DNA from: Nakamurella panacisegetis
GTDB taxonomy: Bacteria > Actinomycetota > Actinomycetes > Mycobacteriales > Nakamurellaceae
DNA: 64,000 nt
NCBI RefSeq assembly: GCF_900104535.1
Contig: NZ_LT629710.1
Location: 992,001-1,056,000, forward strand
Direction: 5' to 3'
The translations under genes and the position numbers were made by a program. Positions 48,801 through 64,000 of this stretch are shown here, one piece after another; positions within the stretch are counted from its first letter, which is position 1; the number at the start of each line of letters is the position of its first letter. The notes beneath the pieces are model-generated. The model had not been told where the DNA came from. It did not search any database and saw only the letters and a list, made by a program, of their open reading frames with translations.

Positions 48801-49493
48801 GAGCCGGGCGCCCGGGGAAGTCACCGATCGCCGCAGCGGGGAGCGATCAAGCGGAGCGAACGAGCGCCGCAACGAACCCTCGACCGGTGCGCAATCACAG
48901 TTCCCGTGCTGGTGCCCGGCCGGGTCGGATGCCTTGCGCCGCAACGCCGACATGGCTCCGTCGGCGGCTCGATCGGCCGCCGCCTCGGCCGGATCGTGCG
49001 CGTTCCCGACGGTCAGGCCGGCGCCACCACCGGAGTCGGCCCCGGTCCGCTGGGCGACCACGTGCCCGAGTTCGTGCGCGATCAGCCGCTGACCGTCGGG
49101 CGCTCCCGGCTTGAATTTCCCCGGCGCGAAATACAGGTCGTTGCCGTGGGTGAAGGCGTGGGACTGGAGGGCACCAGCGATCTTCCCGGCCTCCGGGTCG
49201 GCATGCACCCGCACCGAGGAGAAGTCCTGGCCGTAGTGCTCACCGAGCGACCCGGACAGCTCGGCCGGCAGTTGCGCGCCGGATCCGGCCCGCCGACGCA
49301 GGGCCGCGGAGATGCCCGCGTCGACCTGACTGCCCCCCAGCGGGTCGGCCGACCGTCGTAGCGGTGGACCGGCCTCCAGCCGCCCTCCGATCGGACCGGC
49401 ACCGACCCGAGCGTCGCCTTCGCTCTCGAGGTCAACGGATTCGTCGACGGCGCCCGGTCGGACGTGGGCCCTCCTGGCGCGTTCGGTCGGCAT
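45825..49493 (-). CDS. Giant DUF4157 (eCIS core) metalloprotease-like protein with tandem repeats
   Basis: About 1222 residues. DUF4157, now named the eCIS core domain in Pfam, lies at ~85-160: YGQDFSSVRVHAD, NDLYFAPG, zinc motif HELGH (~139-144) and third-ligand candidate in PAEAAADRAA. A Gly/Ala/Glu-rich repetitive region follows (~290-590; recurring KAEASG, GAKAEASG, GKAEAFAG). The C-terminal half (~610-1222) consists of about six divergent ~100-residue repeats built on YAAKK..G.NGIK.E.V..I and ISGGTITVF. DUF4157 proteins travel with contractile injection systems as effectors or processing proteases. The ATG at 49493 lacks a strong Shine-Dalgarno; GTG 49511 is an alternative. Confidence 0.82.
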   Translation of the reverse strand: MPTERARRAHVRPGAVDESVDLESEGDARVGAGPIGGRLEAGPPLRRSADPLGGSQVDAGISAALRRRAGSGAQLPAELSGSLGEHYGQDFSSVRVHADPEAGKIAGALQSHAFTHGNDLYFAPGKFKPGAPDGQRLIAHELGHVVAQRTGADSGGGAGLTVGNAHDPAEAAADRAADGAMSALRRKASDPAGHQHGNCDCAPVEGSLRRSFAPLDRSPLRRSVTSPGARLDQAIRREVGTDVEQVGNTFEGGTGKYAGTKKENEKGVSTTTHKAVAGAWGEASAEKDEFNGKTHRKGKAEASGVAGAEAYIALIKTATEEELSVAYEACARAGVFGKAEASGVITRGPLQAGGEVSIEGGVGVSAGSTGKAKIDRSGKIPKLEAALTAFAKAGAEFDFAAMGFVGVGPAQLIAKIEASGFAGAKAEASGSVKAGPTGVKLEGEASAMAGAQVEGTAAITVKLSNQEVTAALAGEAFAGVKASVGGKIAIGLSGIEVSGKAEAFAGVSAEATGSVEWTHKGRTIFAASGTVTVDAGAGGKVEGTFTFKNGKLKISFGAKAVLGVGFGADVAAELDFIALGQAIYSEVNDAINRSTVTIGDSAGKIDRQPVVDRLVAAGLIKRGYEAYISDFRGYASKKLSEGQNGIKKERVQEILDFRRGQIGMDLVYGETDQGITKAAVEAFGPLLKSITISGGTITSFLPAPFTAIEGIRKTNTKDTTLAAFRTALSTQVGKVQAGGKHLPDTDMITKVIGKHYSKVSAARTPEEADTEMATVVEEVYAGIISGFTITGGVPGSFKFDAKTVQEKDSAVVTTKADNAQKALLAQITQGCAVYAAKKAGQGDNGIKSERVAKIIADPVSKLRTAAPDDPARLALDGKIAQAVKDGLGSAIRELEVSGGTITVFSAADAQAIKAGDKNDKAAAARQLVYAEASKKFAEYAAKKAVKGTNGVKPEEIQAIVTAAFKKVGDDPTARAEADATLTEKARLAFGDTVNHLKVTDGQAVVVVSQTKTAAVKEKTKSEAARVGSAFGEEDGNKRRYNVRHALYDNLSTYFTRIRANPRGVPTLGEVQTIVSKGTAGFRSELAFDDAKAELMKAISDASEGYFTVRRVDDAGTLSGASADMTALMALRGKDGDDAKDEVVLAALRSPLASYAKASYKKRPTLSTLQAVVDKAKRAWAAGADTATPVDELIAKAIAEAFAERIKECRVEGGMVTVLRMAS

Positions 49494-49664
49494 CGTCAAG
49501 ACGCACCGCACCCATTTCTCGGCGCGGCGGCCGTTCGCAGTTGAATTCGACTCTAGACGCCGCCGGCCGAACGCCGCGTCGTCCGGTGGAGGGAACGAAA
49601 TCCCCGGCCGAGTGAACAAATGACAAAGGTGGGCGTGACGATCCGTGCGCGGCGGCCACAACCG

Positions 49665-51671
49665 TCACGGCAGCAATCCGGCCGGCGCCCGACGCCCGAG
49701 CTTGGCGTACTCGCGCAGGGTGGCGGCCAGCACATGACGAGATCCCACCCCGGTGCCGTCGATGGCCGCGTCGTACGCCGCCGCGAGCACGATGTTGCGC
49801 AGGTCGCCGCCCGCCAGTTCGATGGTGGTGGCCAGGTAGTCCAGGTCGAGCGGGTCACTCTCGTCGAGTTCGCCGACCCGGTCCAGGAGGCGGCCGAGCA
49901 GCTGCCGCCGGGTCGCGGCGTCCGGGTCGGGGAAATGAATGATGAAGTGCATACGACGGGCGAAGGCGGCATCCAGATTGCCGCGCAGATTGGTGGCCAG
50001 AACGGTGATCCCGTTGAAGTGCTCCATTCGCTGCAGCAGGTAGGACACCTCCTGGTTCGCGTAGCGGTCCTTGGCGTCCTTCACCTCGCTGCGGCTGCCG
50101 AACAGGGCGTCGGCCTCGTCGAAGAACAACACGACGTTGAGGTTCTCCGCCTCGGCGAACACCCGCTCCAGGTTCTTCTCGGTCTCGCCGATGTACTTGT
50201 CGATGACGCCGGATAGGTCGACCTGCATCAGGTCCAGCCCGGCGGTGTCGGCGATGACATGGGCGGCCAGGGTCTTACCGGTCCCCGGTCCACCGGTGAA
50301 CAGGGCCGCGATGCCGGTGCCCTTGCCGCCGGCACCGTGCACCGGCCCCCGTGAGATGACGCTGTCCCGCAGCCGGACCCAGTCGCCGAGCCGGTGCAGC
50401 GAGTTGAGCGTCTCCGGCGGCAGTTGCAGGTCGTCGTAGCTGGTGCGCGCCGCTCCCGATCCGGGCCGGAACCGACCCGATCCGCCCAGCAGGCGGACGG
50501 TCTCGGCGACCTGACCGGAGTCGACCGGTCGTCCGGCCAGGCCGGCCTGGGCCACCACGTGACGGCCGGCCGCGGTGATCTGCTCGGGGGTGAGCCGGTA
50601 CGGCACGAGCAGCTCGGCCGGCACCTGTTCGGCGGCGACGTGCTTGCGCCACAACCGGACCCGCTGATCGGGATCGAGGGCAACCGCCCGCACCACCACC
50701 GGCAACGAGGCCCGCCAGGCCGGGTTCCAACGGCATCGGCCGATCAGCACCACCGGTACCGGCGATCCGGACAACAGGGCAACCGCCTCGGCCGCGGTGT
50801 CATCGCCGACCAGGGCTTCGGCTCCGGTCAGCACCACCGCCGTGGCCAGCAGACCGGCCCGCCGAACCGCGGCCAGGGCCGCCGCGATCAATCCGACACC
50901 GGCTGGACGTCGCGCCAGATCGAACACGCTGCAGGCGATCTCGGCCTGCGCGAAGGCCGCCACGGCGGTGGCCACCCCGGCCGCACCGACCGGGTCCTCG
51001 ATCCAGCTCAGCCGGGTCCCGGCGGACAGCGCGGCGGCCAGTTGGGCCGCCGCCTCTGATGCGGGCAGCTCGTCCGGGTCGACCGGGTCGACCGTCATGG
51101 CCAAGGACACCGGCTCCTGCACCGGGTGCCCGACCAACGCACCGACGACGTCCTCGCCGACCGTCACCGATCGGCCCAGGTTCAACGGTCCGGTCTGCAG
51201 GTGCAGCAGCCCCCATCGCCGCAGCGGGGCCGTCTGGCCGAGCAGGGCCCGACCGGCCCCCGACAGCAGCGGGATCCCCGCGAGCTCCAGCAACAACGCG
51301 GCGGACGCCGGTTGCGGGCCGACCGCACCCAGCAACAGGCCGTAGGCGTGGGCGAAGTTCGGATCGAGATCAGGTGCAGCGGCGGCCAACAGCAGGTCAC
51401 CCTCGGCCCGGCCGAGGCCGAACACGGAGGCCATCCGCAACAGCGGATCGGATACCGGCAACGGACTTCCGTCACTCTCCCCCGTTTCCGGGTGGTCCCG
51501 CTGCAGGGCCCTGGCCACGGCTTCCCATGGCGGGGTGCCGGTCAGATCCCGGCGATCGGCGGCCCGTTGGACCGCCGCCAGGACATCGGACAGGGCTGCC
51601 GCGATCACCACCGTCACCTCATCCGCACGCCGGGCGATCAGGCCCGGCCGAATCCGGGTTGTCGCCGCCAT
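49665..51671 (-). CDS. AAA+ ATPase of the CIS type (Afp15/Pvc15-like)
   Basis: 668 residues. A helical N-terminal region (~1-400) has a degenerate ATPase-like half. The C-terminal AAA+ module (~445-655) is intact: Walker A GGPGTGKT (~457-464), Walker B VLFFDEAD (~520), sensor 1 ATNLRGNLD and arginine-finger region AFARRMHFIIHFPDP. This two-part layout is usual for the ATPases encoded in extracellular and intracellular contractile injection loci, where they help assemble or disassemble particles. It is the first gene of the leftward operon, divergent from the DUF4255 gene. Confidence 0.9.
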   Translation of the reverse strand: MAATTRIRPGLIARRADEVTVVIAAALSDVLAAVQRAADRRDLTGTPPWEAVARALQRDHPETGESDGSPLPVSDPLLRMASVFGLGRAEGDLLLAAAAPDLDPNFAHAYGLLLGAVGPQPASAALLLELAGIPLLSGAGRALLGQTAPLRRWGLLHLQTGPLNLGRSVTVGEDVVGALVGHPVQEPVSLAMTVDPVDPDELPASEAAAQLAAALSAGTRLSWIEDPVGAAGVATAVAAFAQAEIACSVFDLARRPAGVGLIAAALAAVRRAGLLATAVVLTGAEALVGDDTAAEAVALLSGSPVPVVLIGRCRWNPAWRASLPVVVRAVALDPDQRVRLWRKHVAAEQVPAELLVPYRLTPEQITAAGRHVVAQAGLAGRPVDSGQVAETVRLLGGSGRFRPGSGAARTSYDDLQLPPETLNSLHRLGDWVRLRDSVISRGPVHGAGGKGTGIAALFTGGPGTGKTLAAHVIADTAGLDLMQVDLSGVIDKYIGETEKNLERVFAEAENLNVVLFFDEADALFGSRSEVKDAKDRYANQEVSYLLQRMEHFNGITVLATNLRGNLDAAFARRMHFIIHFPDPDAATRRQLLGRLLDRVGELDESDPLDLDYLATTIELAGGDLRNIVLAAAYDAAIDGTGVGSRHVLAATLREYAKLGRRAPAGLLP

Positions 51672-52154
51672 CTTCTCAGGGTCTGATCGTCTCAGGGACG
51701 GCCCGACCGGCGTCCATCACCCCGGTCCATGTTCACAGCTGGAGCATCGGGCAATTTCACAACCGGGCGGCGAACACCGCGCGTGTCCGAACCGAAACAC
51801 GCGAGCGGAATTTCCACTCCTTAGGGCAGGGAAGCCGCGCGGGAGTCACCGTCGAGGCGTTTCTATTCCGGAATTCATCTGATCGGCATGTAGCGAATTA
51901 CCAAGCGCCACCCATTCGGTCCTGGCGACCTGGCCAGCCCTTCCGGTGCTCACTCTCCGCATCAATCCGGGCCCAGAAACTGCCCCGGACCTGCTGACCC
52001 ACTGCTGGACGGACGGCGCTCCACCCTGCACTGTGGAGCAGGAAACGGAGCAAACGGTCACAAGCCGCGTTGCCCCGGTGAATTTTCACGCGGGCAGGCG
52101 CACGCGTCCACCTTGAGGTCCGGGGCCGGGTGCGGCCCACCGGGGAGCACGTCG
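51672..52154. promoter_or_regulatory. Divergent control region of the CIS locus
   Basis: 483 bases with no credible gene. It separates the AAA ATPase (leftward) and DUF4255 (rightward) genes and should carry both promoters. The stretch 51850-51905 is notably AT-rich. Two small hairpins are visible: CGCGTGT/ACACGCG at 51780-51803, and GCTCCAC/GTGGAGC at 52018-52039, the latter in the likely leader of the rightward transcript. GGGGAG at 52142 is the ribosome binding site for GTG 52155. Confidence 0.55.
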
Positions 52155-52751
52155 GTGATCATTCCAACGATCGACACGGCCTTGGAAGCGCTTGTCCGCC
52201 AAGCGCTTCCGTTGCCGACGGCGTTGGGTGACGTCTCCTTCGACTCACCGTCGGGAACCTGGTCGGCCCAGCTCAACCGGATCACCGTCAACCTGTTCCT
52301 GTTCGGTGTCGGCCGGTCACCGCAACCGCCCCGTCCCGCGGTCGACCGGATCGTCGACGGACGCACCCAGCGGCGCCCCCCGCTGCCCCTGCTGCAGTTG
52401 CACTACCTGGTCACGGCCTGGGCCGGCTCCGTCCGCGACGAACACCAGCTGATCGGTGACGTCCTGACGGCGTTCCTGATCACCCAGGCACTGCCGCCGG
52501 AGCACCTCCCGGCCGACATCACCTCCGGTGTCCAGCTGGCTGTGGCCCCGCACGACAACAACCGCGCGAAGGACGTCTGGTCGACCGTCGGCGGCACCAT
52601 CAAGCCGTCCTTCGAACTCGTGGTCACCACCGCCAGCGACGCCCTCCCCTACGTCGATCTGCCGACCAGCGTCGCCCGTATCGAGCGAATGCTCGAGGGC
52701 TACACCGCCCCGCCGGAGCCGGTCAGCATGCCCGCCTTCGGGAGAAGCTGA
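52155..52751 (+). CDS. DUF4255 (Pvc16-like) contractile injection system protein
   Basis: 198 residues from GTG 52155 with Shine-Dalgarno GGGGAG. The DUF4255/Pvc16_N pattern is clear: IIPTIDTALEALVRQ, VNLFLFGV at the start of a beta-sheet, LQLHYLVTAWAGSVRDEHQLIGDVL, then PHDNNRAKDVWSTVGGTIKPSFELVVT. Pvc16/Afp16-type proteins cap or terminate the sheath-tube shaft in eCIS. Its neighbours (ATPase, DUF4157) support a CIS locus. Confidence 0.9.
   Translation: MIIPTIDTALEALVRQALPLPTALGDVSFDSPSGTWSAQLNRITVNLFLFGVGRSPQPPRPAVDRIVDGRTQRRPPLPLLQLHYLVTAWAGSVRDEHQLIGDVLTAFLITQALPPEHLPADITSGVQLAVAPHDNNRAKDVWSTVGGTIKPSFELVVTTASDALPYVDLPTSVARIERMLEGYTAPPEPVSMPAFGRS
52184..52210 (+). repeat. Intragenic inverted repeat near the DUF4255 start
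   Basis: A perfect 10-bp inverted repeat, GGAAGCGCTT and AAGCGCTTCC, with a 7-base spacer begins 29 bases into the gene. Each arm also contains the self-complementary AAGCGCTT. The leucine codons in it are both CTT, uncommon in this genome. Confidence 0.75.
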
Positions 52752-52757
52752 CTCCAG

Positions 52758-55319
52758 GTGCGGGTAAGAGCGGACACGGAACTTCTGGATCTGGTTCCCG
52801 GCCAGCGGGCCGACATCACCCTCGACGTGATCAACACCGGCCAGGTGATCGACGGCGTCACCGCGCGCATCGTCGGGCTGCCCGACCAGCACGTGAGCAG
52901 CCACCCGTCGGTCCTACCGCTCTTCCCGGACTCCTCCGGACAGATGACCCTGACGCTCGGCCTGCCACGCAGTTTCCCGGCCGGCCGGCACCCGATGACG
53001 GTCGAGGTGCACTCCCGGCAGCCCGGTACCGCACCGGCCTACGTCGACGTCGACCTCCTGGTGCCGCAGGCCCCGGCCATCGGGTTGAGCAGCAGTCCGC
53101 AGCTGATCCGGACGCACCGCAACGCCAGGTACATCCTCACCGTGGCCAACCGCGGCAACGTCGCCCTCGACGTGGCGCTCAAGGCCAACGACCCGGAGAA
53201 GGCGATCTCGGTCGCGCTCACGCCGAGCCGGCTGATGGTGCCGGCCGGGCAGGCCGGCGACGTGGTGGTCAGTGTCCGCGGGCCGCGGATGATCCTGGGG
53301 ACCGATCTGGACCGGCTCATCACCCTGACCGCGGTCGCTCGTCCGATCGACAACGAACCATTCCTCGTCCCGGTCCCGTCCGGTGCGCCCATGGGCTCTG
53401 GTTCCGTGTTGTCCGGTACCGCACTGCTCACGAAGTCGCCCAGCCCGTTCCGCGCTCCCGGCGACGCCGACGCCGACGGCGACGACGGTGCGCTGTCCTC
53501 CGCGGCCGGAGCCGAGCCACTCACCGAGTCGCTGATCATCACCCTTCGCCAGCGGCCGTGGTTCACCCGCGGCGTGCTGACGGCGCTGATCCTGCTGTCC
53601 ATCATCGCGTTGTGGGCCGGGGTGTTCCTGTTCGGCCTCGGCCAGGTGTTCGCGGGCGACCCGCTCACCAAGACCGCCCCGGCGTCGTACTTCGCCACCG
53701 CCGTCACCGATCAGCCGGCCGGCGTTTCGCAGGCCGCAGTGGCCGGGAGCGCGCCGGGGGCCGCGGCGGGAGCCGGTGCGACTTCAGCCGGTGCGACTTC
53801 AGCCGGTGCGACTTCAGCCGGCGCCGCGCCCGGAGCGCCGGCCGGCGCGGCTCCGGGCAGCGGGACAGCGGGCGGTGCGACCAGCGCCGGCGGCGAGCCG
53901 CCGGCCGGAGCCCTGCCCAAGACCGGCGCCATGCCGGCCGGCCTCGGGGGCACCATCTCGGGCACCGTGACCGCCGCCACCGACGGCGAACCGGTGGGCC
54001 GGATCCTGGTGGAAGCGTTGCGCACCAAGGCCGACGGCAGCACGGTGGTGGTCAGTTCGGCAGCCACCCAGACCGACGGCACCTACCAGGTCGCCGGGCT
54101 GTTCCCGGGGAGCTACGCGCTGCGCTTCTCGGCCGCCGGGTTCGTCACCGTGTACCACCCGGCGGCGCCGAACCAGGGGTCCGCCCAGGCGGTGACGGTG
54201 TCCAGCGGAGCCGTCACGGCCGGGGCCGATGCCGTCATCGTCGGCAAACCGGCCACCATCACCGGGTCGATCGACCCGGGCGACACCCTGGACAAGGTGG
54301 TGGCCACGGTCAGCGTCCGACCGCTGGGCGGGAAGAACCAGGGCAAGACGATCGCGTCGGTCAGGACCAACGCATCCGGCGGCTACACGATCCCCAAGCT
54401 GCCCGCCCCCGGCAGTTACCAACTGGTGTTCACGGCCAGCGGCTACCAGCCGACGACCGTCCAGACCGACGTCAGCGGCGGGGCGAAACGCTTCGAGCCG
54501 TCGGTCCTGCTGTCGTCCGGGCTGGGCCAGATCTCCGGCACCGTCACCGACGGAACCAGCCCGCTGGGCGGCATCACCGTCGCCACGACGGTCGATGGAA
54601 CCGCGGTGACCACCGGCACCCCCACCACCGGTCAGGTCGGGCATTTCGTGCTGGGTCAGCTCCCCACCCCGGCCACCTACGTGATCACCTTCTCCGGGGC
54701 CGGATTCGGCGAAACCACGGTCGTGGTCGACCTCGGCCCGGGCAAGGTCAACAACGCCCTGAAGGTGGTGCTGGCCAAGGGGACCGGCAACGTGAGCGGG
54801 GTGCTGGTCGACTCCACCGGCAAGGGGATCGGCGGCGCGACGGTCACCGTCGGCGGCGCGGCCGACCCGCAGACCACCACCACGTTGACCGCCGGCGTCG
54901 TCGGCAGTTTCAGCCTGTCCGGTCTGCCCTCCCCCGGCTCCTACACCCTCAGTTTCAGCTTGAACGGGTACGCCGACGCCACGGTGCCGGTCAACCTCAC
55001 CGGCACGGCGCCGGTGGCCCCGCTGCGGGTGGTCATGGTCGGCGCCCTGGGCAAGATCACCGGCGTGGTGACCGGGCCGGGAGGAGCCCCCATGACCGGT
55101 GCGGCCGTGGTCGCGACCGACGGCAAACGCAGCTGGCCGGTCACCTCGACGGCGGGGTCCGGCCCGGTGCCGAACGGCGGCTACGTGATCGACCAGCTGC
55201 CGGCCGGGGTCTACACCGTGACCGCCACGTCGGCCACCGGAGTCGCCCGGACGGCCATGGTCACCGTGACGCCGGGCACCCCGGCCACGCAGAACTTCCC
55301 GCTGTCGGACAGCGGGTGA
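52758..55319 (+). CDS. CIS-associated single-pass membrane protein with Ig-like N-domains and five carboxypeptidase-regulatory-like repeats (stalk protein 1)
   Basis: 853 residues from GTG 52758, six bases after the DUF4255 gene. Two Ig-like domains without a signal peptide (~1-230) are followed by a basic segment (RQRPWFTRG) and one membrane helix (~270-292), predicting N-terminus inside and C-terminus outside. An Ala/Gly/Ser linker (~315-395) leads to five ~90-residue beta-domains (~397-853), each opening G.I(S/T)G.V and containing a G.Y...LP.PG.Y...F...GY motif. Genes like this are labelled hydrolytic protein in Streptomyces CIS loci, but I see no catalytic motif. Function unknown; membrane anchor or stalk is inferred. 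Confidence 0.82.
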   Translation: MRVRADTELLDLVPGQRADITLDVINTGQVIDGVTARIVGLPDQHVSSHPSVLPLFPDSSGQMTLTLGLPRSFPAGRHPMTVEVHSRQPGTAPAYVDVDLLVPQAPAIGLSSSPQLIRTHRNARYILTVANRGNVALDVALKANDPEKAISVALTPSRLMVPAGQAGDVVVSVRGPRMILGTDLDRLITLTAVARPIDNEPFLVPVPSGAPMGSGSVLSGTALLTKSPSPFRAPGDADADGDDGALSSAAGAEPLTESLIITLRQRPWFTRGVLTALILLSIIALWAGVFLFGLGQVFAGDPLTKTAPASYFATAVTDQPAGVSQAAVAGSAPGAAAGAGATSAGATSAGATSAGAAPGAPAGAAPGSGTAGGATSAGGEPPAGALPKTGAMPAGLGGTISGTVTAATDGEPVGRILVEALRTKADGSTVVVSSAATQTDGTYQVAGLFPGSYALRFSAAGFVTVYHPAAPNQGSAQAVTVSSGAVTAGADAVIVGKPATITGSIDPGDTLDKVVATVSVRPLGGKNQGKTIASVRTNASGGYTIPKLPAPGSYQLVFTASGYQPTTVQTDVSGGAKRFEPSVLLSSGLGQISGTVTDGTSPLGGITVATTVDGTAVTTGTPTTGQVGHFVLGQLPTPATYVITFSGAGFGETTVVVDLGPGKVNNALKVVLAKGTGNVSGVLVDSTGKGIGGATVTVGGAADPQTTTTLTAGVVGSFSLSGLPSPGSYTLSFSLNGYADATVPVNLTGTAPVAPLRVVMVGALGKITGVVTGPGGAPMTGAAVVATDGKRSWPVTSTAGSGPVPNGGYVIDQLPAGVYTVTATSATGVARTAMVTVTPGTPATQNFPLSDSG
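53771..53821 (+). repeat. 15-bp tandem repeat in the stalk-protein linker
   Basis: 3.4 perfect copies of AGCCGGTGCGACTTC, encoding AGATS units in the extracytoplasmic linker just after the membrane helix. Copy-number change would alter linker length in frame. Confidence 0.9.
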
Positions 55320-55326
55320 TCCGGGC

Positions 55327-58188
55327 ATGAGAGTCAGCGTCACCCCGCAGCGGATCGAACTGGAGGAGGAGACCCCGTTCAAGGTGGCCATCACGGTCAC
55401 CAACACCGGGGACCTGATCGGCGGCTACCACCTCCGGATCCTGGGTGCCGACCCCGCCTGGGTCCGTTTGGAGTCGGAGAACCTGTCGCTGTTTCCGGAC
55501 ACGTCGCAGACGGTGACGGCGACCATCACGATTCCCCGCGGGCTGGGCGCGGGCGACCGCCGGATCGCCATCCAGGTTCGCGAACTGACTCCGCCACAGG
55601 CCATCTCGGTGGCCGAGATCGACATCCTGGTGCCTTCGCGCCAGGCACTGAAGCTGTCCCTGAGCCCGATGACGGTGATCTGCGGCAGCGTCGGACGGTT
55701 CGGCCTGGTCCTGGAGAACACCGGGAACACCACGGTCGAGGCCCGTCCGATCGGCCTCGACCCGGAAGAGAAGATCGAGTTCACCTTCCTGCCCCCGGTG
55801 GTCACCCTGGCCCCGGGCGAGCACGTCATCACCGACCTGCGGGCCAAGGCCAAACGGCGCTGGTTCGGGACCCCGGTGGTCCGAGCGTTCGGCCTGGCCA
55901 TCGCCCCGGACGACGTCCTGGCCGCCCCGCTGATCCCGGAACCGGGCCCGGGGGCCGGTCCGCGGCACCGCAAGGTGGCCGGGGCGATCGCGCCCGTGCC
56001 GCCCAAGATCGAACCGCTGGCCACCGGCTCGATGCTGCAGAAGGCCCGGCTGGCCCGCGGGGCAATCTCGCTGCTGAGCCTGCTGCTGGCGGTCAGCGTC
56101 TTTGCGATCGTCATCACCATCGCGCTGTCCCGCCTGGTCGGCGTGTCCGCGGCCGACCGCGACCTGGCCATCCAGGTGGCGGCGGCCCGGCAGTCCAACT
56201 CGGCGTCGGGCACATCGACCCTCGGCGGGACGGTCAAGCTCCTGACCGACGGGTCGCCGGCGGCCGGCGTGGCCGTCGAACTGTTCGACGCCAATTCGAC
56301 GGCCTCGCCACTGACCAGCACGGCCACGAACGACAAGGGCGTGTGGACCCTGCCGTCCCTGGCCGAGGGCTCGTACAAGCTCCGGTTCCGGGGGGCCGGG
56401 TTCGCCGAGATCTGGTATCCCTCGGCGCTGACCGGCGCCGACGCCAAGGCCGTGCAACTGCAGGCCGGGCAGAAGCTCACCAACCTGGCCATCACGCTGG
56501 GCGGCCTCCCGGCCACCGTCTCGGGAACGGTGCTCGGCGATGACGTGGCCGCGGCCGTGCTGACCGTGTCGATCCCGGCGACGGATCTGCCGCGGGGAGG
56601 CGCCCCGCCGACCGGCACCGCAACCCTGCCCCTGGTCACGGCCCAACCCGTACCGACCGCCGGGGCCCCGGCGGTGACCAGGTCGACGGCGCCCAAGACC
56701 ACCGCGGCGGCGACCACCTCCGCCCCGGCCGACGGCGCCAACGGCGGCGCCGTGGTCCAGACGGTGCCGATCGGGGCCGACGGCACCTTCTCCGTCCCCG
56801 ACCTGCCCTCACCCGCGGTCTACGACCTGACGGTCGCCAAGGCCGGGTACGCGACGGCCACCCAACGCATCGACCTGTCCGGTGGTGAGGACCGCAAGGG
56901 CGTGGAACTCCGCCTGCGCACCGGTGACGGCCTGATCTCCGGCACCGTCACCGGGCCGGACGGCCCCTTGGCCGGGGCGGTGGTCACCGCAACGACCGGG
57001 AAGACGGTGGTGACCACCGTGTCCCTGACCACCGGCGCCGTCGGCACCTTCACCCTTCGCGGTCTGGTGACCCCGGGGACGTACACGGTGACCGTGACCA
57101 AGGACAACTTCACCACCGCCAGTTCGACCCTGACGTTGGCCGCCGGCCAGAAACTCACCGGCGTGCAACTGTCGATGGCCAGATCGTCGGGGTCGCTCAC
57201 CGGCATGGTGACCCTGCTCGGTACCGGTAAAGCCGCGCCCGGAGTCTCGGTCACCATCACCACCGGCGACACCACGGTCAGCACGGTCACCCAGTCGACC
57301 GGGTCGATCGGGGCCTGGACCGTGGCCGGACTGCCCGTGCCCGGTGCGTACACGGTCACCTTCTCCCGCGCCGACCTGCAGTCCCAGACGGTAGCCGTCT
57401 CACTCGACGCGACGGGCAAGCTCACCAGCGGTTCCGGAAGCACGGCCGGAGGCATCGCGGTCGGGATGAAATCGGCCTCGGCCGTGATCAGCGGGACCGT
57501 GACCCAGCGGTCGGCCAACGGGACCGTGCAGAAGGTGGGCCAAGCGGTGATCACGCTCTCGTCGGGCACCGACACCTACACCGTGAACAGCGCGTCGCTG
57601 CCCTCCTCGTCACTGGGTCGCTACGAGATCACCGGCATCACGCCCGGCACCTACACGCTGTCGGCCAACCGGCCCGGCACCAGCCCGACGACGGTGATCG
57701 TCACCGTCACCGCCGGGCAGATCCTCCTCTACGACCCGGTGATGATCCCGCCGGCGGCGATCTCCGGGCACGTGAAGAGCCGGACCGGCGGCACCGTGCT
57801 GGGTCTCGAGGTCGATCTGTACCAGGCGTCGCAGTACCCGGCGAAGGTCTACCGGACCACCACCACCGACTCCACCGGTGCCTATTCGTTCGTGGACGTC
57901 GATGCACCGCAGGCCTACGTCGTCGAGGTGCGCAGCAGCACGGCCGGGTCCCTGGGGTCGGCCACGCTGGTGCTGGCGGCCAGCCAGGCCGCCGTCCTGG
58001 ACCTGACGGTCGGCGCCATCACCTCGGGCACCACCACGCAGGGGGCGGTCACCACACCAGCCGCCCCGACCACCCCCACCACCCCCACCTCCACCACGGC
58101 CGGGGCCGCCCCTGCCGTCACCACCCCGGCTTCGGTCACCCCCGCCCGCGTCACCTCCACGACTGACACCACGACAGGCACCCGATGA
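55327..58188 (+). CDS. CIS-associated single-pass membrane protein with six repeats (stalk protein 2)
   Basis: 953 residues from ATG 55327, 7 bases after the previous stop. It has the same architecture: two Ig-like domains with no signal peptide (~1-210), a basic segment (QKARLARG), one membrane helix (~247-268), a short linker, and about six carboxypeptidase-regulatory-like beta-domains (~295-895). A Thr/Pro-rich tail of some 55 residues resembles a cell-wall-spanning spacer. The N-domains align by eye with stalk protein 1 (RVSVTP, then LFPDTSQ versus LFPDSSGQ). No enzyme motif is seen. The ATGA overlap with the next gene suggests coordinated synthesis. Confidence 0.82.
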   Translation: MRVSVTPQRIELEEETPFKVAITVTNTGDLIGGYHLRILGADPAWVRLESENLSLFPDTSQTVTATITIPRGLGAGDRRIAIQVRELTPPQAISVAEIDILVPSRQALKLSLSPMTVICGSVGRFGLVLENTGNTTVEARPIGLDPEEKIEFTFLPPVVTLAPGEHVITDLRAKAKRRWFGTPVVRAFGLAIAPDDVLAAPLIPEPGPGAGPRHRKVAGAIAPVPPKIEPLATGSMLQKARLARGAISLLSLLLAVSVFAIVITIALSRLVGVSAADRDLAIQVAAARQSNSASGTSTLGGTVKLLTDGSPAAGVAVELFDANSTASPLTSTATNDKGVWTLPSLAEGSYKLRFRGAGFAEIWYPSALTGADAKAVQLQAGQKLTNLAITLGGLPATVSGTVLGDDVAAAVLTVSIPATDLPRGGAPPTGTATLPLVTAQPVPTAGAPAVTRSTAPKTTAAATTSAPADGANGGAVVQTVPIGADGTFSVPDLPSPAVYDLTVAKAGYATATQRIDLSGGEDRKGVELRLRTGDGLISGTVTGPDGPLAGAVVTATTGKTVVTTVSLTTGAVGTFTLRGLVTPGTYTVTVTKDNFTTASSTLTLAAGQKLTGVQLSMARSSGSLTGMVTLLGTGKAAPGVSVTITTGDTTVSTVTQSTGSIGAWTVAGLPVPGAYTVTFSRADLQSQTVAVSLDATGKLTSGSGSTAGGIAVGMKSASAVISGTVTQRSANGTVQKVGQAVITLSSGTDTYTVNSASLPSSSLGRYEITGITPGTYTLSANRPGTSPTTVIVTVTAGQILLYDPVMIPPAAISGHVKSRTGGTVLGLEVDLYQASQYPAKVYRTTTTDSTGAYSFVDVDAPQAYVVEVRSSTAGSLGSATLVLAASQAAVLDLTVGAITSGTTTQGAVTTPAAPTTPTTPTSTTAGAAPAVTTPASVTPARVTSTTDTTTGTR

Positions 58189-61100
58189 CAGAGCAGCCAC
58201 CTCCCCGTCGCTACGTGGGACCGGCCGCCGGTGACGCCAGCCCGAGGATCCAGCTCGAGCCGTTGATCCGTTGCGGGGCCGGCACTTCGGCGACCTTCGA
58301 GGTGTTCATCACCCACCGTGGGCCGGTCGCGGCCACGCTGCGGGTATCGGTGCTCGGCCTGGACAGCCGCTGGGTGCCGCCGGCGCTGCCGGTCGGGCCG
58401 ATCGAGCCGGGCGAGACCACCCGCATCACGCTGTCCCTGGTTCCCGAGCGGGGCACATTGGGGGCCAAGTACCCGTTCGTCGTCGCGGCCGAGGCCACCC
58501 CGGTGTCCGGCAAGTTCCCGCCGACCATGGGCGTGGCCGAGTCGACCCTGGCCGTCGACGGCCGCGATCCGATCACCATGACGGTCTCGCCTCAGACCCC
58601 GACGGCCGTCTTCGGCCGGCGGGTCAAGGTGCAGATCACCAACCCGGGCTACTTCGACCGCGAACTGAGCCTGGCCGCCGACGCCGCGCGGGGCGCCTCC
58701 CTGCGGCTGAGCTCCACCATGGTCACGGTGCCGGCCGGGCGGACGGTGACCGTTCCGGGTCGGGTCAGAGTCACCCACCCGAAGCTCATGGGTGGGCAGA
58801 ACACCCACACCTTCGCCGTGTCGGCCCGCGGCCAGGGTGCTCCCGAATTCGCCGAGGGTGTCCTGCGGTCGAAGCCGCTGCTGGGCGGCCGGGTCACCGG
58901 TCTGCTGATCACCGTGGTCGTCATCGCCCTGTGGGCGAGCGCGGCCGTCGTCGGGATTCCCAAGCTGTCCACCTACTTCGCCGGCAATTCCGGCAGCACA
59001 GCCGCCCCGACCACGGCGGCCTCCAGCCCCGGGGCGAGCGGATCGAAGAGCGCCGGTTCGGGGGCTTCCGGTTCGGGAGCCGCCGGGACCGGGGCGGCCG
59101 GTTCCGGCGGTTCCGGTTCCGGGGCGGCCGGAGCCGGCGGTTCCTCCTCCGGCGGCGGCGGCGGCGGTGCGGGCGGTGCCGCCGCCGGGGCGGCGGGTGC
59201 CGGAGCAGGTGCCGGGGCACGATTGTCCGGCACCGTCACCGGCGTGGTCACCAAGGGCATCCTGGTGTCCCTGGAGCCGACCAGCCTGGTCGAGGCGGCG
59301 GCCGAGGGAGCGGCCCCGGCCGCCGGAGTCACCGACGCGGCCACCACCACCGCTCTCCGATCGATGTCCGGTGCCCTCTACAAGGTCGCCGACACCGCAC
59401 TGCGGGTGGCACCGGCGGCCACCGACGGCGGGATCCGCACCACGTCGTCGGCCACCGACGGAAGTTTCTCCTTCGCATCCATCAGTGCGCCCGGGTACTA
59501 CCTGTTGACCCTGGCCAAGGCGGGTTTCCAGACCCAGCGTTACATGATCAACGCCGCCACCCTCGATGCGGCGACGCCGCTGAAGGTCGCGATGGTGCCC
59601 GGTGACGGCTCCATGTCGGGCACGGTGACCTCTCCGTCCGGCGTGGTCGGCGCCGCGTCGGTGACGATCACCGACGGCACCGTCGCCCTGCAGACCAGCA
59701 CGGCGTCGAAGACCGGAGCCTGGACCGTGAAGGGACTTTCGACGCCGGGCACGTATCTGGTCACCGTCACCTCGACCGGTTTCGGCGCCGCGTCCAAGCT
59801 GGTGACCCTGGGCGCCGGCGGCACGGCCACCGCCGATCTCACCCTCAAGCCCGGCGTGGCCGCCATCGTCGGCACCGTGCGCGGGGTGGATTCGCTGGGC
59901 CATCTCGGCGGCATCGGTGGGGTCACCGTGACCGCCACCGGGTCGAGCAAGGGTGTCGCGGCCAGCCGCACCGCCACCACCGTCACGTCCGGGCCGGTCG
60001 GCACGTACGCGTTGCCCGACCTTCCGGTGCCGGGCGACTACACGGTCACCGTCACCGGCACCGGGTACGCGTCGCAGACGCAGCAGGTGTCGCTGGCCGC
60101 GGGCAGCTCGTCGGCCACCGTCAACGTCTCGCTGACCAGAGCCGACGGCACCGTCACGGGCACCGTGGTCGGCGACGGCAAGGAGGGCGGACTGATCGGG
60201 GCCGGCCTGACGTTGACCGGGGCATCGGCCACCTACAAGACCATGACCACGTCCGTACCGGCCGGCGCCTATCGATTCACCGGTGTGCCCCCGGGCACCT
60301 ACGTCCTGCAGGCGTCACAGTACGGACGGGTGGCCTCCTCGGCCACCGTCGTGGTGGCGGCGGCCGGGACCGCAGTGGCCAACCTGCACCTGATCGGCGC
60401 ACCGGACACGGAACTGCCGACCACGGCCCGGATTCGCGGCCGAGCGGTGGACTCCCGGACCCAGGGACCACTGACCTGCGATCGGGCCGCCATCGCGAAA
60501 CCGGTGTGCGTGGTGACCGCCTCGGTGCCGATCCCGGTACCGGGCACCACGAAGACGGAGACCATCTCCGGAGTCTCCGGCCCGGCCGAGGACTACACGC
60601 TGCCCAGCCTCGACGACAAGAAGCACGCCGGCCTGGTCGCCGGCCTGTACGCGATCACCCTCTCGGCTCCTGGGTACGAGCCGACGACGGTCCAGGTGCA
60701 GGTCGCACAGGGCCAGACGACCCCGGCCCCGCAGGTCAGCCTGCCACCGCTGGGTCTGATCACCGGCACCATCACGACCAAGGTGGGCACCCCGGTCAGC
60801 CCCTCGTGTGTGGTGTCGGTCCCGGCCGGTACCAGCCCGCCCACGACGTGCAGCCGCACCGGCACCACCAGCTGTGCCGTCCCCGCGCCGGCCTCGGCGC
60901 GGTGCGTGCTGACCGGAACCGGTGGAGCGTATGAGATCCGCGGGCTGGTGCACGGCGGCTACCAGGTCGTGGTGATCCCCACCGACTCGGAATACCTTCC
61001 CACCCAGCCGTTCTCGGTCCAGCTGGAGCTGGGCGGCGACTACCGCTACGACACGTCCCTTGACCGGTACGGCCGGGCCACGGTCACCGTGCTCGAGCCC

Positions 61101-64000
61101 GACCTGCAGAGCCTGGCCCTGACTCCGGCCAAGGGCGCCGTGGTCGGCATGATCGATTCCTCGGGCCGCGGGCGCGGGTCGCCGCTGGCCGGCGATTCGA
61201 CATCGACCGACGGCATCCTGACCATCACCAACCTGCAGGGCAGCTACACCGCGACGGCGACCGGGGACATCCCGACCGGACTGGCCACCGGGGTCACGAC
61301 CCTGGCCGGAAATGCCACCGCGCCAACGGGTTCCATCGGATTGAACCAGACCGTCGCGGTCACCGCCGTGCTGACCGCCCCCATCGGTGCGGTGGTCGGA
61401 CACGTGACGGTCACGGTCGACGGCGAGGTCCGTCCGGTGAAGGACGCACCGGTCCAGGTGTCCGGCATCGTGTCGTTCAGCGGGCGGACGTCGGTGTCCG
61501 GATCGACCACGGTCACCACCGACAGCAACGGGTGTTACGCGATCATCCCGGCCTCCGGGTGGACCGGCACGGCTCTGAAGTCGGACGACTGCCCGACCGC
61601 GGTTGCTGCCGGCTCCACCGCCAAGGTGACGAACACCGACGGGTCCCCGGCCTCGCTGATCGCGCTGCCACTCGGTATCAGCATCGCCGCTCAGGGGCAG
61701 AAGACCCAGAGCTATTCGGCCACCGGCGTTGTCATCGGCTTCAACGGCGACGTCAGCGTCATCCCGCCGATCTCGTTGCTGGCCCAGCCCTCGGTGTTCC
61801 CGGCACTGAGCCTGGATCTCAAGGCACCGGACGGGGTGGCCACCGACGCTTCGCAGTCGAACATCGTGGTGACCCGAAAGCCTGCCGGCGCCGGCAACAT
61901 CACGGTGACCGCCGCCGCCAACGGAACCCTCAGCTGGTCCGACTCGCTGCTCGGGTCAGGCAAGGCGGTGCCCGGCCTGTACATCCTGCGGGCCACCCAG
62001 CTCGGTTACTCGACCGCCTCCGGTGGCGGCAGCGACGGCATGGCCTCTGGCTACGCGACCATCTGGTGCGACCTCGGCGCCGCCTGCCGGTTCGGCACCC
62101 GGGCCACCGCGGCATCGGCCTGGACCATGAGCCGGCTGCCGAGCATGAGCGGGACGCTCTCGGTCTCCCCGGCCACCCTGCCGGCCGGCGTCACGCTGGA
62201 CAAGGCGGTCATCTCGGTGATCTCCCAGCCGTCGGCGGCCGGGTCCATCCAGATGTCGGTCAACCAGATCACCGGCCTCATCGCCTACACCGACACCTCG
62301 CTGCCGGCCGGGCTGGCCCAGCCGACCGCGAGCTCGGCTCCCTACGTGTTCACGATCAGCCTGCGCGGCTACCAGTTGGCCACCTTCAGCGTGGACTGTG
62401 GCCCGACCTATGCGCAGGGCTGCACCCGCGAGGGCGCCAGCCCGGCGGATGCGCCCCCGCTCTCAGTTTCGCTGTTCGAGTTGCCCAGCATCACCGGCAC
62501 GATCTCCGTGGCGGGCGGGACCGGCGCGTTGCCGGCCGGCGTCAATCTGAGCCAGGCCGTGATCTCGGTGATCTCCCAGCCGTCGGCCGCCGGGTCGATC
62601 CAGATGTCGGTCAACCAGAACTCCGGTGCGGTCAGCTACACCGACAGTTCGCTGCCCGCCGGGCTGGCCCAGCCGACGGCCAGCGGCGCGCCGTACGTGT
62701 TCACCGTCAGCCTGCCCGGCTATCAACCGAAGACGGTCAGCATCGACTGTGGCCCAACGTATGTGCAGGGCTGCGTCCAGCAGGGCGCGCCCACCGGAGC
62801 GAAGCCGATGTCCATCACGCTGGCCCCGTTGCCGCGCTTCTCCGGGTCCATCACGTTGGTCTCGACGATCACGACGCCGACCCAGTCGTTGAGCGGGGTG
62901 ACCGTTTCGTTCACCGGCCAGCCGAACCCGGCCAAGCCGGTGACCCTCAGCCTGGCCGACACCAGCGGAACGTCATCCGATCTGAACTGGTCGGACCCGA
63001 GCCAACCGCCCGGCGTCCTGAGCTACGGCGACTACTCGTTGACCTTCGCCAAGGCCGGATATCAGCCGACGACGGTGAATTTCTCCTGCCCGACCGGATC
63101 GCCGACCTGCTCGTTCAACGGCGGCCGACCGGTCGTCCTGACCATGGATCCGGCCGGTGCGGGAACGGTGACGGTGGACAAATACCTCCCGTCCTCCCCG
63201 ACATCGATCGACTGGAGCGCCGCGACGGTCACCCTCGCGTCGGCTCCGGCCGGCACCAGCGGGCTGAAGATCACCGTCGAGCAGGATCCCAACAACCCCA
63301 TGACCGGTGATCTGGTCTGGGCCGACAGCGGTCTTCCCTACCCCGGCATCACCCTGCCCGGCACCTACGTCCTGACGGTCACCATGCCCGGCTACGGCGC
63401 GAAGACCAGCTCGGCCGTCACCTGTGCCGCCGGCGGCGTCTGTGCACCGACCGTTGGCCAACTCGGCCGTCTGGCGGCGTTCTCGGGAACGGTTGCCGTC
63501 AACCCGACCGTCACCCCGGACGACAGCGGCGGGCTGGCCGGTGTGACAGCGACGGTCACCTCCCAGCCGGTGGCCAACGCGACGATCACGATCGCCGTCG
63601 ACCAGACCAGCGGAACACTCACCTGGAGCGACAGCACCCAGCCGGTCGGCGTGGTGACACCCGGCACCTACACGGTGCTGTTCGCCAAGTCCGGCTACCT
63701 GTCGATCAACAAAACGGTCGACTGCAGCACGTCGGCCGCCGCCTGTACCACCGGAACCGTGACGCTCCAGGAGTTCCCACATGGTGGCGGGACAGTATCG
63801 GTGGATGCGCCTCTGCCCGGCACCACCACCGTCGACTGGAGCAAGGCGACCGTCACACTGACCACCAAGCCCTCGGCCAGCAGCACGTTGTCGGTCGGCC
63901 TGGTCAGCTCGGGCGACACGACCGCGGATCTGGTCTGGGCCGATTCGGCCCTCCCGTATCCGCATCTGACCCAGCCCGGAACGTACGTGTTGCTGGTGTC
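58185..64000 (+). CDS. Giant CIS-associated single-pass membrane protein with many beta-domain repeats (stalk protein 3), partial
   Basis: ATG 58185 overlaps the previous stop (ATGA). The spot-checked frame stays open to the window end, so more than 1938 residues are present and the C-terminus is missing. N-terminal Ig-like domains (~10-225), basic lead KPLLGGR, one membrane helix (~236-258) and a Gly/Ser/Ala linker (~265-345) repeat the plan of the two upstream proteins. Then come many beta-domains: first carboxypeptidase-regulatory-like (PG.Y.VTVT.TGY), later ones with conserved Cys pairs (DCGPTYAQGC, CPTGSPTC, CAAGGVC, CSTSAAAC). Two neighbouring copies are nearly identical (period 117 residues). 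Function unknown; an outward stalk or adhesin is inferred. Confidence 0.82.
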   Translation, partial: MTEQPPPRRYVGPAAGDASPRIQLEPLIRCGAGTSATFEVFITHRGPVAATLRVSVLGLDSRWVPPALPVGPIEPGETTRITLSLVPERGTLGAKYPFVVAAEATPVSGKFPPTMGVAESTLAVDGRDPITMTVSPQTPTAVFGRRVKVQITNPGYFDRELSLAADAARGASLRLSSTMVTVPAGRTVTVPGRVRVTHPKLMGGQNTHTFAVSARGQGAPEFAEGVLRSKPLLGGRVTGLLITVVVIALWASAAVVGIPKLSTYFAGNSGSTAAPTTAASSPGASGSKSAGSGASGSGAAGTGAAGSGGSGSGAAGAGGSSSGGGGGGAGGAAAGAAGAGAGAGARLSGTVTGVVTKGILVSLEPTSLVEAAAEGAAPAAGVTDAATTTALRSMSGALYKVADTALRVAPAATDGGIRTTSSATDGSFSFASISAPGYYLLTLAKAGFQTQRYMINAATLDAATPLKVAMVPGDGSMSGTVTSPSGVVGAASVTITDGTVALQTSTASKTGAWTVKGLSTPGTYLVTVTSTGFGAASKLVTLGAGGTATADLTLKPGVAAIVGTVRGVDSLGHLGGIGGVTVTATGSSKGVAASRTATTVTSGPVGTYALPDLPVPGDYTVTVTGTGYASQTQQVSLAAGSSSATVNVSLTRADGTVTGTVVGDGKEGGLIGAGLTLTGASATYKTMTTSVPAGAYRFTGVPPGTYVLQASQYGRVASSATVVVAAAGTAVANLHLIGAPDTELPTTARIRGRAVDSRTQGPLTCDRAAIAKPVCVVTASVPIPVPGTTKTETISGVSGPAEDYTLPSLDDKKHAGLVAGLYAITLSAPGYEPTTVQVQVAQGQTTPAPQVSLPPLGLITGTITTKVGTPVSPSCVVSVPAGTSPPTTCSRTGTTSCAVPAPASARCVLTGTGGAYEIRGLVHGGYQVVVIPTDSEYLPTQPFSVQLELGGDYRYDTSLDRYGRATVTVLEPDLQSLALTPAKGAVVGMIDSSGRGRGSPLAGDSTSTDGILTITNLQGSYTATATGDIPTGLATGVTTLAGNATAPTGSIGLNQTVAVTAVLTAPIGAVVGHVTVTVDGEVRPVKDAPVQVSGIVSFSGRTSVSGSTTVTTDSNGCYAIIPASGWTGTALKSDDCPTAVAAGSTAKVTNTDGSPASLIALPLGISIAAQGQKTQSYSATGVVIGFNGDVSVIPPISLLAQPSVFPALSLDLKAPDGVATDASQSNIVVTRKPAGAGNITVTAAANGTLSWSDSLLGSGKAVPGLYILRATQLGYSTASGGGSDGMASGYATIWCDLGAACRFGTRATAASAWTMSRLPSMSGTLSVSPATLPAGVTLDKAVISVISQPSAAGSIQMSVNQITGLIAYTDTSLPAGLAQPTASSAPYVFTISLRGYQLATFSVDCGPTYAQGCTREGASPADAPPLSVSLFELPSITGTISVAGGTGALPAGVNLSQAVISVISQPSAAGSIQMSVNQNSGAVSYTDSSLPAGLAQPTASGAPYVFTVSLPGYQPKTVSIDCGPTYVQGCVQQGAPTGAKPMSITLAPLPRFSGSITLVSTITTPTQSLSGVTVSFTGQPNPAKPVTLSLADTSGTSSDLNWSDPSQPPGVLSYGDYSLTFAKAGYQPTTVNFSCPTGSPTCSFNGGRPVVLTMDPAGAGTVTVDKYLPSSPTSIDWSAATVTLASAPAGTSGLKITVEQDPNNPMTGDLVWADSGLPYPGITLPGTYVLTVTMPGYGAKTSSAVTCAAGGVCAPTVGQLGRLAAFSGTVAVNPTVTPDDSGGLAGVTATVTSQPVANATITIAVDQTSGTLTWSDSTQPVGVVTPGTYTVLFAKSGYLSINKTVDCSTSAAACTTGTVTLQEFPHGGGTVSVDAPLPGTTTVDWSKATVTLTTKPSASSTLSVGLVSSGDTTADLVWADSALPYPHLTQPGTYVLLV
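62140..62840 (+). repeat. Two near-identical 351-bp repeats inside stalk protein 3
   Basis: The segment starting ATCTCGGTGATCTCCCAGCC occurs at 62211 and again at 62562, exactly 351 bases (117 codons) later. The following ~60 bases differ at only a few positions. The protein copies share AVISVISQPSAAGSIQ, DSSLPAGLAQPT-like and DCGPTY motifs. Confidence 0.85.

Follow-up and report, generated by a model that had tools for sequence, protein, structure and literature searches.

Three predicted membrane-anchored repeat proteins, two with fixed repeat numbers, in a contractile injection locus of Nakamurella panacisegetis

In a 64,000-nucleotide stretch of the Nakamurella panacisegetis genome (assembly GCF_900104535.1, contig NZ_LT629710.1, bases 992,001-1,056,000 of a 5.01 Mb genome in one contig), hereafter the window, three adjacent genes of a contractile injection system (CIS) locus encode proteins that we call stalks A, B and C. 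Sequence comparison establishes their homology, their position in a CIS locus, their descent as an orthologous trio and the fixed repeat numbers of A and B, and predicts one membrane helix in each. The case is also strong that the trio are homologues of the Sco4256-4258 family of Streptomyces, the family identity being drawn from gene position and the published description. We consider the chances about even that A, B and C act as stalks, anchored in the membrane, by which a cytoplasmic CIS is connected to the cell envelope. The wider question is the route by which a cytoplasmic CIS comes to the membrane in a monoderm cell, and for the envelope side of such a machine a conserved set of three stalks, with fixed domain numbers, supplies concrete candidates.

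The three genes and their parts are as follows; coordinates past 64000 continue the window numbering on the extended sequence, on which the open reading frame (ORF) of C was called.

52758-55319, + strand: stalk A, 853 aa; two immunoglobulin (Ig)-like domains, membrane helix, Gly/Ala/Ser/Pro linker, five CarboxypepD_reg-type repeats
53574-53630, + strand: membrane helix of A, residues ~273-291 (hydropathy)
53949-55298, + strand: the five beta-repeats of A, residues 398-847 (repeat profile)
55327-58188, + strand: stalk B, 953 aa; two Ig-like domains, membrane helix, six CarboxypepD_reg-type repeats, Thr/Pro-rich tail
56071-56127, + strand: membrane helix of B, residues ~249-267 (hydropathy)
56215-58011, + strand: the six beta-repeats of B, residues 297-895 (repeat profile)
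58185-67838, + strand: stalk C, 3,217 aa, running 3.8 kb beyond the window end at 64000; two Ig-like domains, membrane helix, Gly/Ser/Ala linker, at least 21 beta-repeats
58902-58958, + strand: membrane helix of C, residues ~240-258 (hydropathy)

An earlier note, made from the letters of the window alone, had described three tightly spaced genes sharing one order of parts, and the ORFs, Pfam, hydropathy and a trained repeat profile bear this out. The N-terminal parts of A, B and C are 24-27% identical to one another in alignment. As the note had it, each protein has a single strong hydrophobic segment, near residue 273 in A, 249 in B and 240 in C, with no second one by hydropathy, and no hydrophobic N-terminal signal sequence precedes the Ig part in any of them, judged by eye and not with a signal-peptide predictor. 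The basic segment that had been proposed beside the helix finds modest support, the inside/outside charges being +1/0 in A, +2/0 in B and +1/+1 in C. Significant CarboxypepD_reg stretches in Pfam number five in A (E 2.5e-48), six in B (E 1.9e-47) and six in C (E 7.1e-43), and the repeat profile, trained on A, B, C and related proteins from 28 loci, finds five, six and 21, in agreement with the five, six and more than ten domains counted originally. A sixth profile match in A is a score-3 match within the N-domain, and the 21 of C is a lower bound, as similar cysteine-paired sequence reaches the C-terminus. Sortase anchoring of A through an LPKTG motif in its linker was considered and rejected, the motif being kept in 5 of 28 orthologues. 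Because the gene for Cis16, a cap protein, lies only 6 bases ahead of A, A and B are 7 bases apart, B and C overlap by 4 bases and all lie on one strand, Cis16, A, B and C read like a single transcription unit, which we infer from the spacing.

The arrangement recurs well beyond this genome. We compared 28 trio loci from six families and five more from two families outside the class (f67 and f80), the latter serving as an outgroup. All three genes are present, at least in part, in 26 of the 27 further loci within the class, the remaining one (G146) being cut by a contig end inside B; two more genomes with profile matches (G122 and G128) were left out of the 28-locus set. Recurrence in 27 further loci, six families in all with our own, excludes a chance arrangement. 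Five strong repeats are present in all 33 A proteins, four of which add a fragment scoring 3-10, and stalk B has six in all 32 complete proteins; the five outgroup loci, kept out of the profile training, show the same numbers for A and B. For stalk C, 8 to 22 repeats were detected in uncut genes, counts that drift slightly with the size of the search, and its length goes up to 3,866 residues. The length order A<B<C holds in 28 of the 33 loci, the exceptions being four at contig ends (G079, G114, G146 and G485) and G087, where the frame of C ends abnormally. That the repeat counts have stayed constant despite divergence suggests that length may be important for A and B, and less so for C. A beta-domain reaches roughly 4 nm, which would give rough reaches of ~20 nm for A, ~24 nm for B and >80 nm for the C of this genome. 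We also observed that the C of G087 (L047:8527-11073, minus strand) is short, with its last ~45 residues unlike those of its relatives, as if broken, and that G541 has, on the same contig as its full trio, a second A-B-like pair with five and six repeats (L225:2299-6887, plus strand) upstream of PAAR-like and sheath genes.

A tree of the N-domains (109 rows, with 28 A, 28 B and 27 C proteins) places A, B, C and the single proteins of related, single-type CIS loci in four groups with supports of 100/99, 100/99, 100/100 and 100/97, five long-branched single proteins having been left out. We therefore reject the idea that the trio arose as a local duplication in one genome, as A, B and C each form an orthologous group of their own. 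The outgroup A proteins join the A group (82/98) and the outgroup B proteins the B group (99/96); the outgroup C proteins, tried as candidate members of the C group, branch outside it.

The trio also appears to belong to a CIS lineage of its own, separate from that of the single type. In a tree of the CIS ATPases, 18 trio loci stand apart from 15 single-type loci with a support of 98/97, and since the second CIS loci of three trio genomes (our own, G049 and G073) fall with the single type, this split is not the species tree. The rows of two trio loci (G297 and G306) sit on a long branch beside the single group, and the rooting is uncertain for that reason. The tree was built without ten of the 28 trio loci: the fetched stretches of five (G101, G032, G121, G241 and G294, and likewise that of the single-type G069) had no ATPase match, matches shorter than 300 residues were dropped in four (G030, G107, G079 and G205), and G114 was not included.

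The link of the N-domains to CIS can be followed through Pfam family PF14065, the Cis16 marker. Among 150 genomes sampled from the order, the trio N-part profile matches 38 and PF14065 matches 50, with 36 having both; the two genomes with the N part and without the marker (G082 and G093) are drafts, 87 and 93% complete. Among 296 genomes sampled from the class, the single-type profile matches 40, the marker 47, and 39 have both. Fisher's test gives p 8e-21 in the order and 1e-39 in the class, values that ignore kinship among the genomes. A sheath like that of the locus described here is found in 26 of the 27 other trio genomes (13 through the flanks of the trio and 14 of 15 through a search, one in both), hence in 27 of 28 with our own included, so that the check on CIS-bearing relatives proposed in the earlier note came out in its favour; the sole genome without such a sheath is G114, 78% complete. 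The best sheaths in the 14 searched genomes are 76-88% identical to ours, compared with 48% for the second CIS of G073. The Cis16 gene directly precedes A in the same orientation, at a gap of at most 345 bases, in 21 of the 26 other loci that have it, and is on the opposite strand in five. Outside the class, four of the five loci have Cis12, the zinc-ribbon protein, Cis16 and then A, B and C in a row on one strand, and in three fetched stretches a baseplate J-type gene stands directly ahead of this block.

The homology to the Streptomyces proteins emerges from profile comparison. The profile of the trio N parts aligns to that of eight single proteins with an hhalign probability of 99.9 (E 1.5e-32), the alignment spanning both Ig domains into the helix; the single-protein profile retrieves proteins of the Streptomyces-type family f33 with E down to 7e-89, and the trio profile matches Streptomyces-type genomes directly with E down to 3e-29. 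When named genomes were scanned with f33 sequences, the best 80 of 240 relatives corresponded to 77 loci, nearly all of Streptomyces, with the AAA gene in 67 and Cis16 in 66, and with one, two or three tandem copies in 46, 26 and 5 of them, respectively, as counted on mechanical ORFs with some contigs cut. In the outer part, 71 of 113 Streptomyces homologues have a recognised module: ricin-type lectin in 43, ChW in 22, PG_binding_1 in 2 and CDtoxinA in 4. CDtoxinA is a binding-subunit family and overlaps the ricin-type domain in another homologue (L069); neither a catalytic toxin nor any other family was found at E 1e-5 in these outer parts. Other members have PASTA, fn3 or PG_binding_1 outer parts, and several single proteins (e.g. 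L074) a small outer domain without a Pfam match. By these comparisons, the inner part of two Ig-like domains (Ig2) and helix is kept while the predicted wall- or glycan-binding outer parts are swapped.

On which side of the membrane each part lies is indicated by the cysteines. Across 129 A, B, C and single proteins, the number of cysteines after the helix, where it is not zero, is even in 74 of 75; of the 43 proteins with cysteines before the helix, 34 have an odd number, and the proteins not counted have none. Among the 31 single proteins examined, 30 have an even number of cysteines after the helix, the C of this genome has 36 cysteines after the helix and 1 before, and the 27 C proteins of the N-domain tree have 13 different counts, zero included. 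Taken with the lectin and wall-binding modules of the relatives, the even numbers support the orientation put forward in the earlier note, namely N-domains in the cytoplasm and repeats outside. An outside location of the part after the helix, with disulphides formed in an oxidising place, is thus well supported by sequence patterns. Most A and B proteins have no cysteine after the helix, so their orientation is argued from their homology to C and the single proteins. Charges flanking the helix are biased in keeping with this topology in 26 of 28 A and 21 of 28 B proteins.

From these findings it can be hypothesized how the stalks would work. Chains of TTR/CnaB-like beta-domains would have taken the place of the outer lectin or wall-binding module that the Sco4256 family has in Streptomyces. 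The constant Ig2 part would stay in the cytoplasm, one helix would pass through the membrane, and the chain, mostly disulphide-bearing in C, would be exported and cross the wall, A and B reaching about the thickness of a Gram-positive wall and the long C further. Inside, the Ig parts may attach to the assembled CIS or to neighbours of it such as Cis12, the CisA-like protein or Cis16, and a cytoplasmic particle could in this way be held or triggered at the envelope; outside, the chains may sense or hold the wall or surface. The zinc-ribbon protein encoded near the baseplate genes could share one membrane assembly with the Ig2 parts, the stalks supplying the outer part that it is missing. Docking, wall crossing and triggering are all conjectural steps in this proposal. 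The presence of the trio in G073, which we take as Nakamurella multipartita, a non-sporulating coccus, implies that its function need not depend on filamentous development. A bolder version, which we regard as a tentative minority possibility, is that the trio, the zinc-ribbon protein and Cis16 form a trans-envelope portal of monoderm cells, corresponding in Gram-positives to the type VI membrane complex, in which A and B would be a wall-fixed ruler and C would report contact or envelope damage. If this were true, an entire actinobacterial CIS lineage would fire from inside through the wall, and Sco4256-4258 would be short lectin-tipped receptors, not cargo. TssJ, TssL and TssM of the type VI membrane complex were sought among the Pfam matches of A, B, C and the scanned baseplate-side proteins, and none was present.

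A number of observations weigh against stalks that link the CIS to the envelope. PF14065 occurs without an N-domain match in 14 of 50 genomes of the order sample and 8 of 47 of the class sample, and G220, 99% complete, has a weak N-domain match without PF14065. The sheath is on a different contig from the trio in nine drafts, where linkage is not demonstrable, and lies 39 kb (G073) or 57 kb (G108) away on the same contig, which weakens the claim of a single locus. The cysteine counts come from related sequences, making the independent events fewer than 75, and the charge bias is weak in C (14 of 27) and in the single proteins (11 of 31). To the same side belong three results published for Streptomyces: loss of sco4256-4258 gave ~85% empty tubes and, in addition, the phenotype of a CIS mutant, expression of Sco4256-4258 lowered the viability of E. 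coli (both PMC10066040), and Sco4256 was detected in purified particles (PMC10020575). These fit A, B and C being injected effectors, as has been put forward for Sco4256-4258, the Ig2-helix part serving as a loading or membrane-insertion module and the outer chain being delivered; effectors, too, can combine a constant N part with variable C parts. We regard this as possible but doubtful, given that C attains its 3,866 residues with many predicted disulphides and that the recognised outer modules are adhesive or wall-binding and none is catalytic. Moreover, S. lividans packages another cargo, Sle1 with its DUF4157 partner Sle2 (PMC13277306), and the DUF4157 protein of our locus is matched in 15 of 27 other trio loci, the flanks of which were fetched in part. 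It is this choice, between the Sco4256 family as injected cargo, as published, and as a membrane receptor, that the trio makes testable.

The empty tubes and the membrane topology would be reconciled if the trio were membrane-bound loading or quality-control factors that fill or prime the particles, with no lasting docking or wall sensing. This seems unlikely to us, as it leaves unexplained both why exported chains should have a fixed five and six repeats and why lectin, PASTA, PG-binding and repeat modules should be exchanged. A still slimmer prospect is that the trio holds on to Cis16 and fixes the particle to the membrane by its distal end, the cap, rather than by its baseplate: the same-strand neighbourhood of Cis16 and A, so close in the window, speaks for it, yet Cis16 is on the opposite strand in five of the 26 loci, and since four outside-class loci hold Cis12 and a CisA-like gene in the same block, adjacency does not single out the cap. 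Least probable of all is that A, B and C are ordinary surface adhesins that chance to adjoin a CIS. Repeats of the CarboxypepD_reg, SdrD_B and SpaA-like kinds are common in adhesins, and the stalks match all three in Pfam. Against this, the marks of an LPXTG adhesin are missing from the stalks (no signal peptide by eye, and the LPKTG of the A linker poorly kept), the Ig2 part is common to CIS proteins of Streptomyces, and the trio goes with a separate CIS lineage; near-complete co-occurrence with the CIS marker disfavours the adhesin reading. Envelope-linking stalks are the interpretation that we favour.

The neighbourhood of the trio agrees with the contractile injection locus assigned in the earlier note, with sheath, two tube, spike and baseplate genes downstream. 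The note had asked for sheath and tube genes within about 20 kb, and the end of the sheath gene lies 19.8 kb beyond the window. The features are:

45825-49661, - strand: eCIS_core (DUF4157) protein, Pfam E 1.8e-25, mechanical start codon; the domain, then a long Gly/Ala-rich part
49665-51671, - strand: AAA ATPase of the CIS locus (Pfam)
52113-52751, + strand: Cis16/Pvc16-type cap protein (PF14065), Pfam E 2.6e-29, mechanical start codon
68825-69826 (L003:16826-17827), - strand: zinc-ribbon protein with two motifs and a C-terminal helix
69840-70874, - strand: Tail_P2_I
70663-72621, - strand: Baseplate_J, Pfam E 3.9e-12
72621-73070, - strand: gp25
73188-74945, - strand: spike (GPD/Phage_base_V)
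74992-75690, - strand: CIS_tube with LysM
75695-80323 (L004:3695-8323), - strand: Pro/Ala/Ser/Thr-rich protein, 1,542 aa, between the tube and LysM genes
80331-80837, - strand: tube
81061-81537, - strand: 158-aa protein
81534-82013, - strand: tube
82185-83762, - strand: sheath
84103-84492, - strand: DUF4280/PAAR-like protein

A Nudix-like gene, named by eye, and a 70-aa ORF separate stalk C from the minus-strand CIS block. The eCIS_core protein is a candidate for a cargo-related protein of this CIS. The 1,542-aa protein may determine length or serve as cargo; its C-terminal 140 residues have matches in 2 of the 27 other trio loci.

The zinc-ribbon protein invites comparison with CisA (Sco4242), a bitopic protein encoded beside the baseplate genes and needed for CIS firing in S. 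coelicolor (PMC12237407). It is a Pro-rich, tail-anchored protein, conserved in trio loci, that ends after its helix. In every one of the 16 other loci with an identified baseplate, its gene sits beside Cis12 in the same orientation, and it is probably, judging by position, the counterpart of CisA without the outer domain. A proven homology to CisA was not established: the best profile stretch scores 8.8 bits, which is not significant, and a search of five Streptomyces genomes, run with no positive control, gave no match. A Streptomyces protein that its position leads us to regard as CisA (L220) combines zinc ribbons and a helix with a C domain of the F5/8 type, unlike the zinc-ribbon protein, which has no C domain. 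The second CIS of our own genome encodes, beside Cis16, a 760-aa protein with a zinc-ribbon motif, several Ig-like domains and four predicted membrane helices (L006:7925-10207, plus strand; genome ~4,947,924-4,950,206). Three genomes of the genus (loci L006, L186 and L187) have, in their second CIS, one protein that fuses a zinc-ribbon motif, 3-5 Ig-type matches and 3-4 helices, the zinc ribbon staying under the Pfam cut-off in the one scanned; such fusions hint at a link between the zinc-ribbon and Ig2 kinds of protein.

The stalks of the trio resemble CisA in having a bitopic layout in a CIS locus, with a predicted cytoplasmic N part and outer C part, and differ in that their N parts consist of Ig-like domains, where that of CisA is disordered. 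Tail fibres with eBAP anchors, which include Ig/PKD chains and macroglobulin shafts, are likewise chains of adhesive beta-domains encoded near Cis12 and contacting a surface, but they are bound to the baseplate through an eBAP N-domain (PMC12923769), while the stalks bear an Ig2 part followed by a membrane helix. Carboxypeptidase-regulatory domains occur among eBAP4 fibre partners as well, in that different context (PMC12923769); DUF6519/eBAP5 (PF20129) had no match in our genome, in a search without a positive control. The closest solved relatives of stalk A by sequence are NOMO2, SdrD, carboxypeptidases D and N and a SusC homologue, all but one aligning over its repeats; NOMO and the Sdr/carboxypeptidase D chains share the repeat fold only and have no known relation to CIS. 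The nearest kin remain Sco4256-4258, described in S. coelicolor as neighbours whose N termini are highly similar and which each have one helix and a domain at the C-terminus, and as putative CIS effectors (PMC10066040); a three-domain architecture was given for Sco4256 (PMC10020575), and the C-terminal domain was reported as ricin/lectin-like in Sco4257/4258 and as toxin/lectin-like in about one third of the homologues. Shared with the trio are the homologous N part of two Ig-like domains, the single helix following it (near residue 220-240 there), the tandem copies and the AAA and Cis16 neighbours. The trio differs in ending in CarboxypepD_reg repeats, not in ricin, ChW or similar modules, and the ricin/lectin-like domain that it lacks is not universal among the published members either. 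Another difference is that the copies of four Streptomyces species cluster within the genus, unlike the three orthologous groups of A, B and C. The statement of the earlier note that no such trio had been described must accordingly be narrowed, as Sco4256-4258 are a published homologous trio (PMC10066040), and it appears to hold for the repeat-stalk variant, of which no description stood among the titles and abstracts listed in searches of open-licence PMC papers on CIS, supplements not covered. What is new is this variant, its fixed architecture and the evidence for the outside location of the part after the helix.

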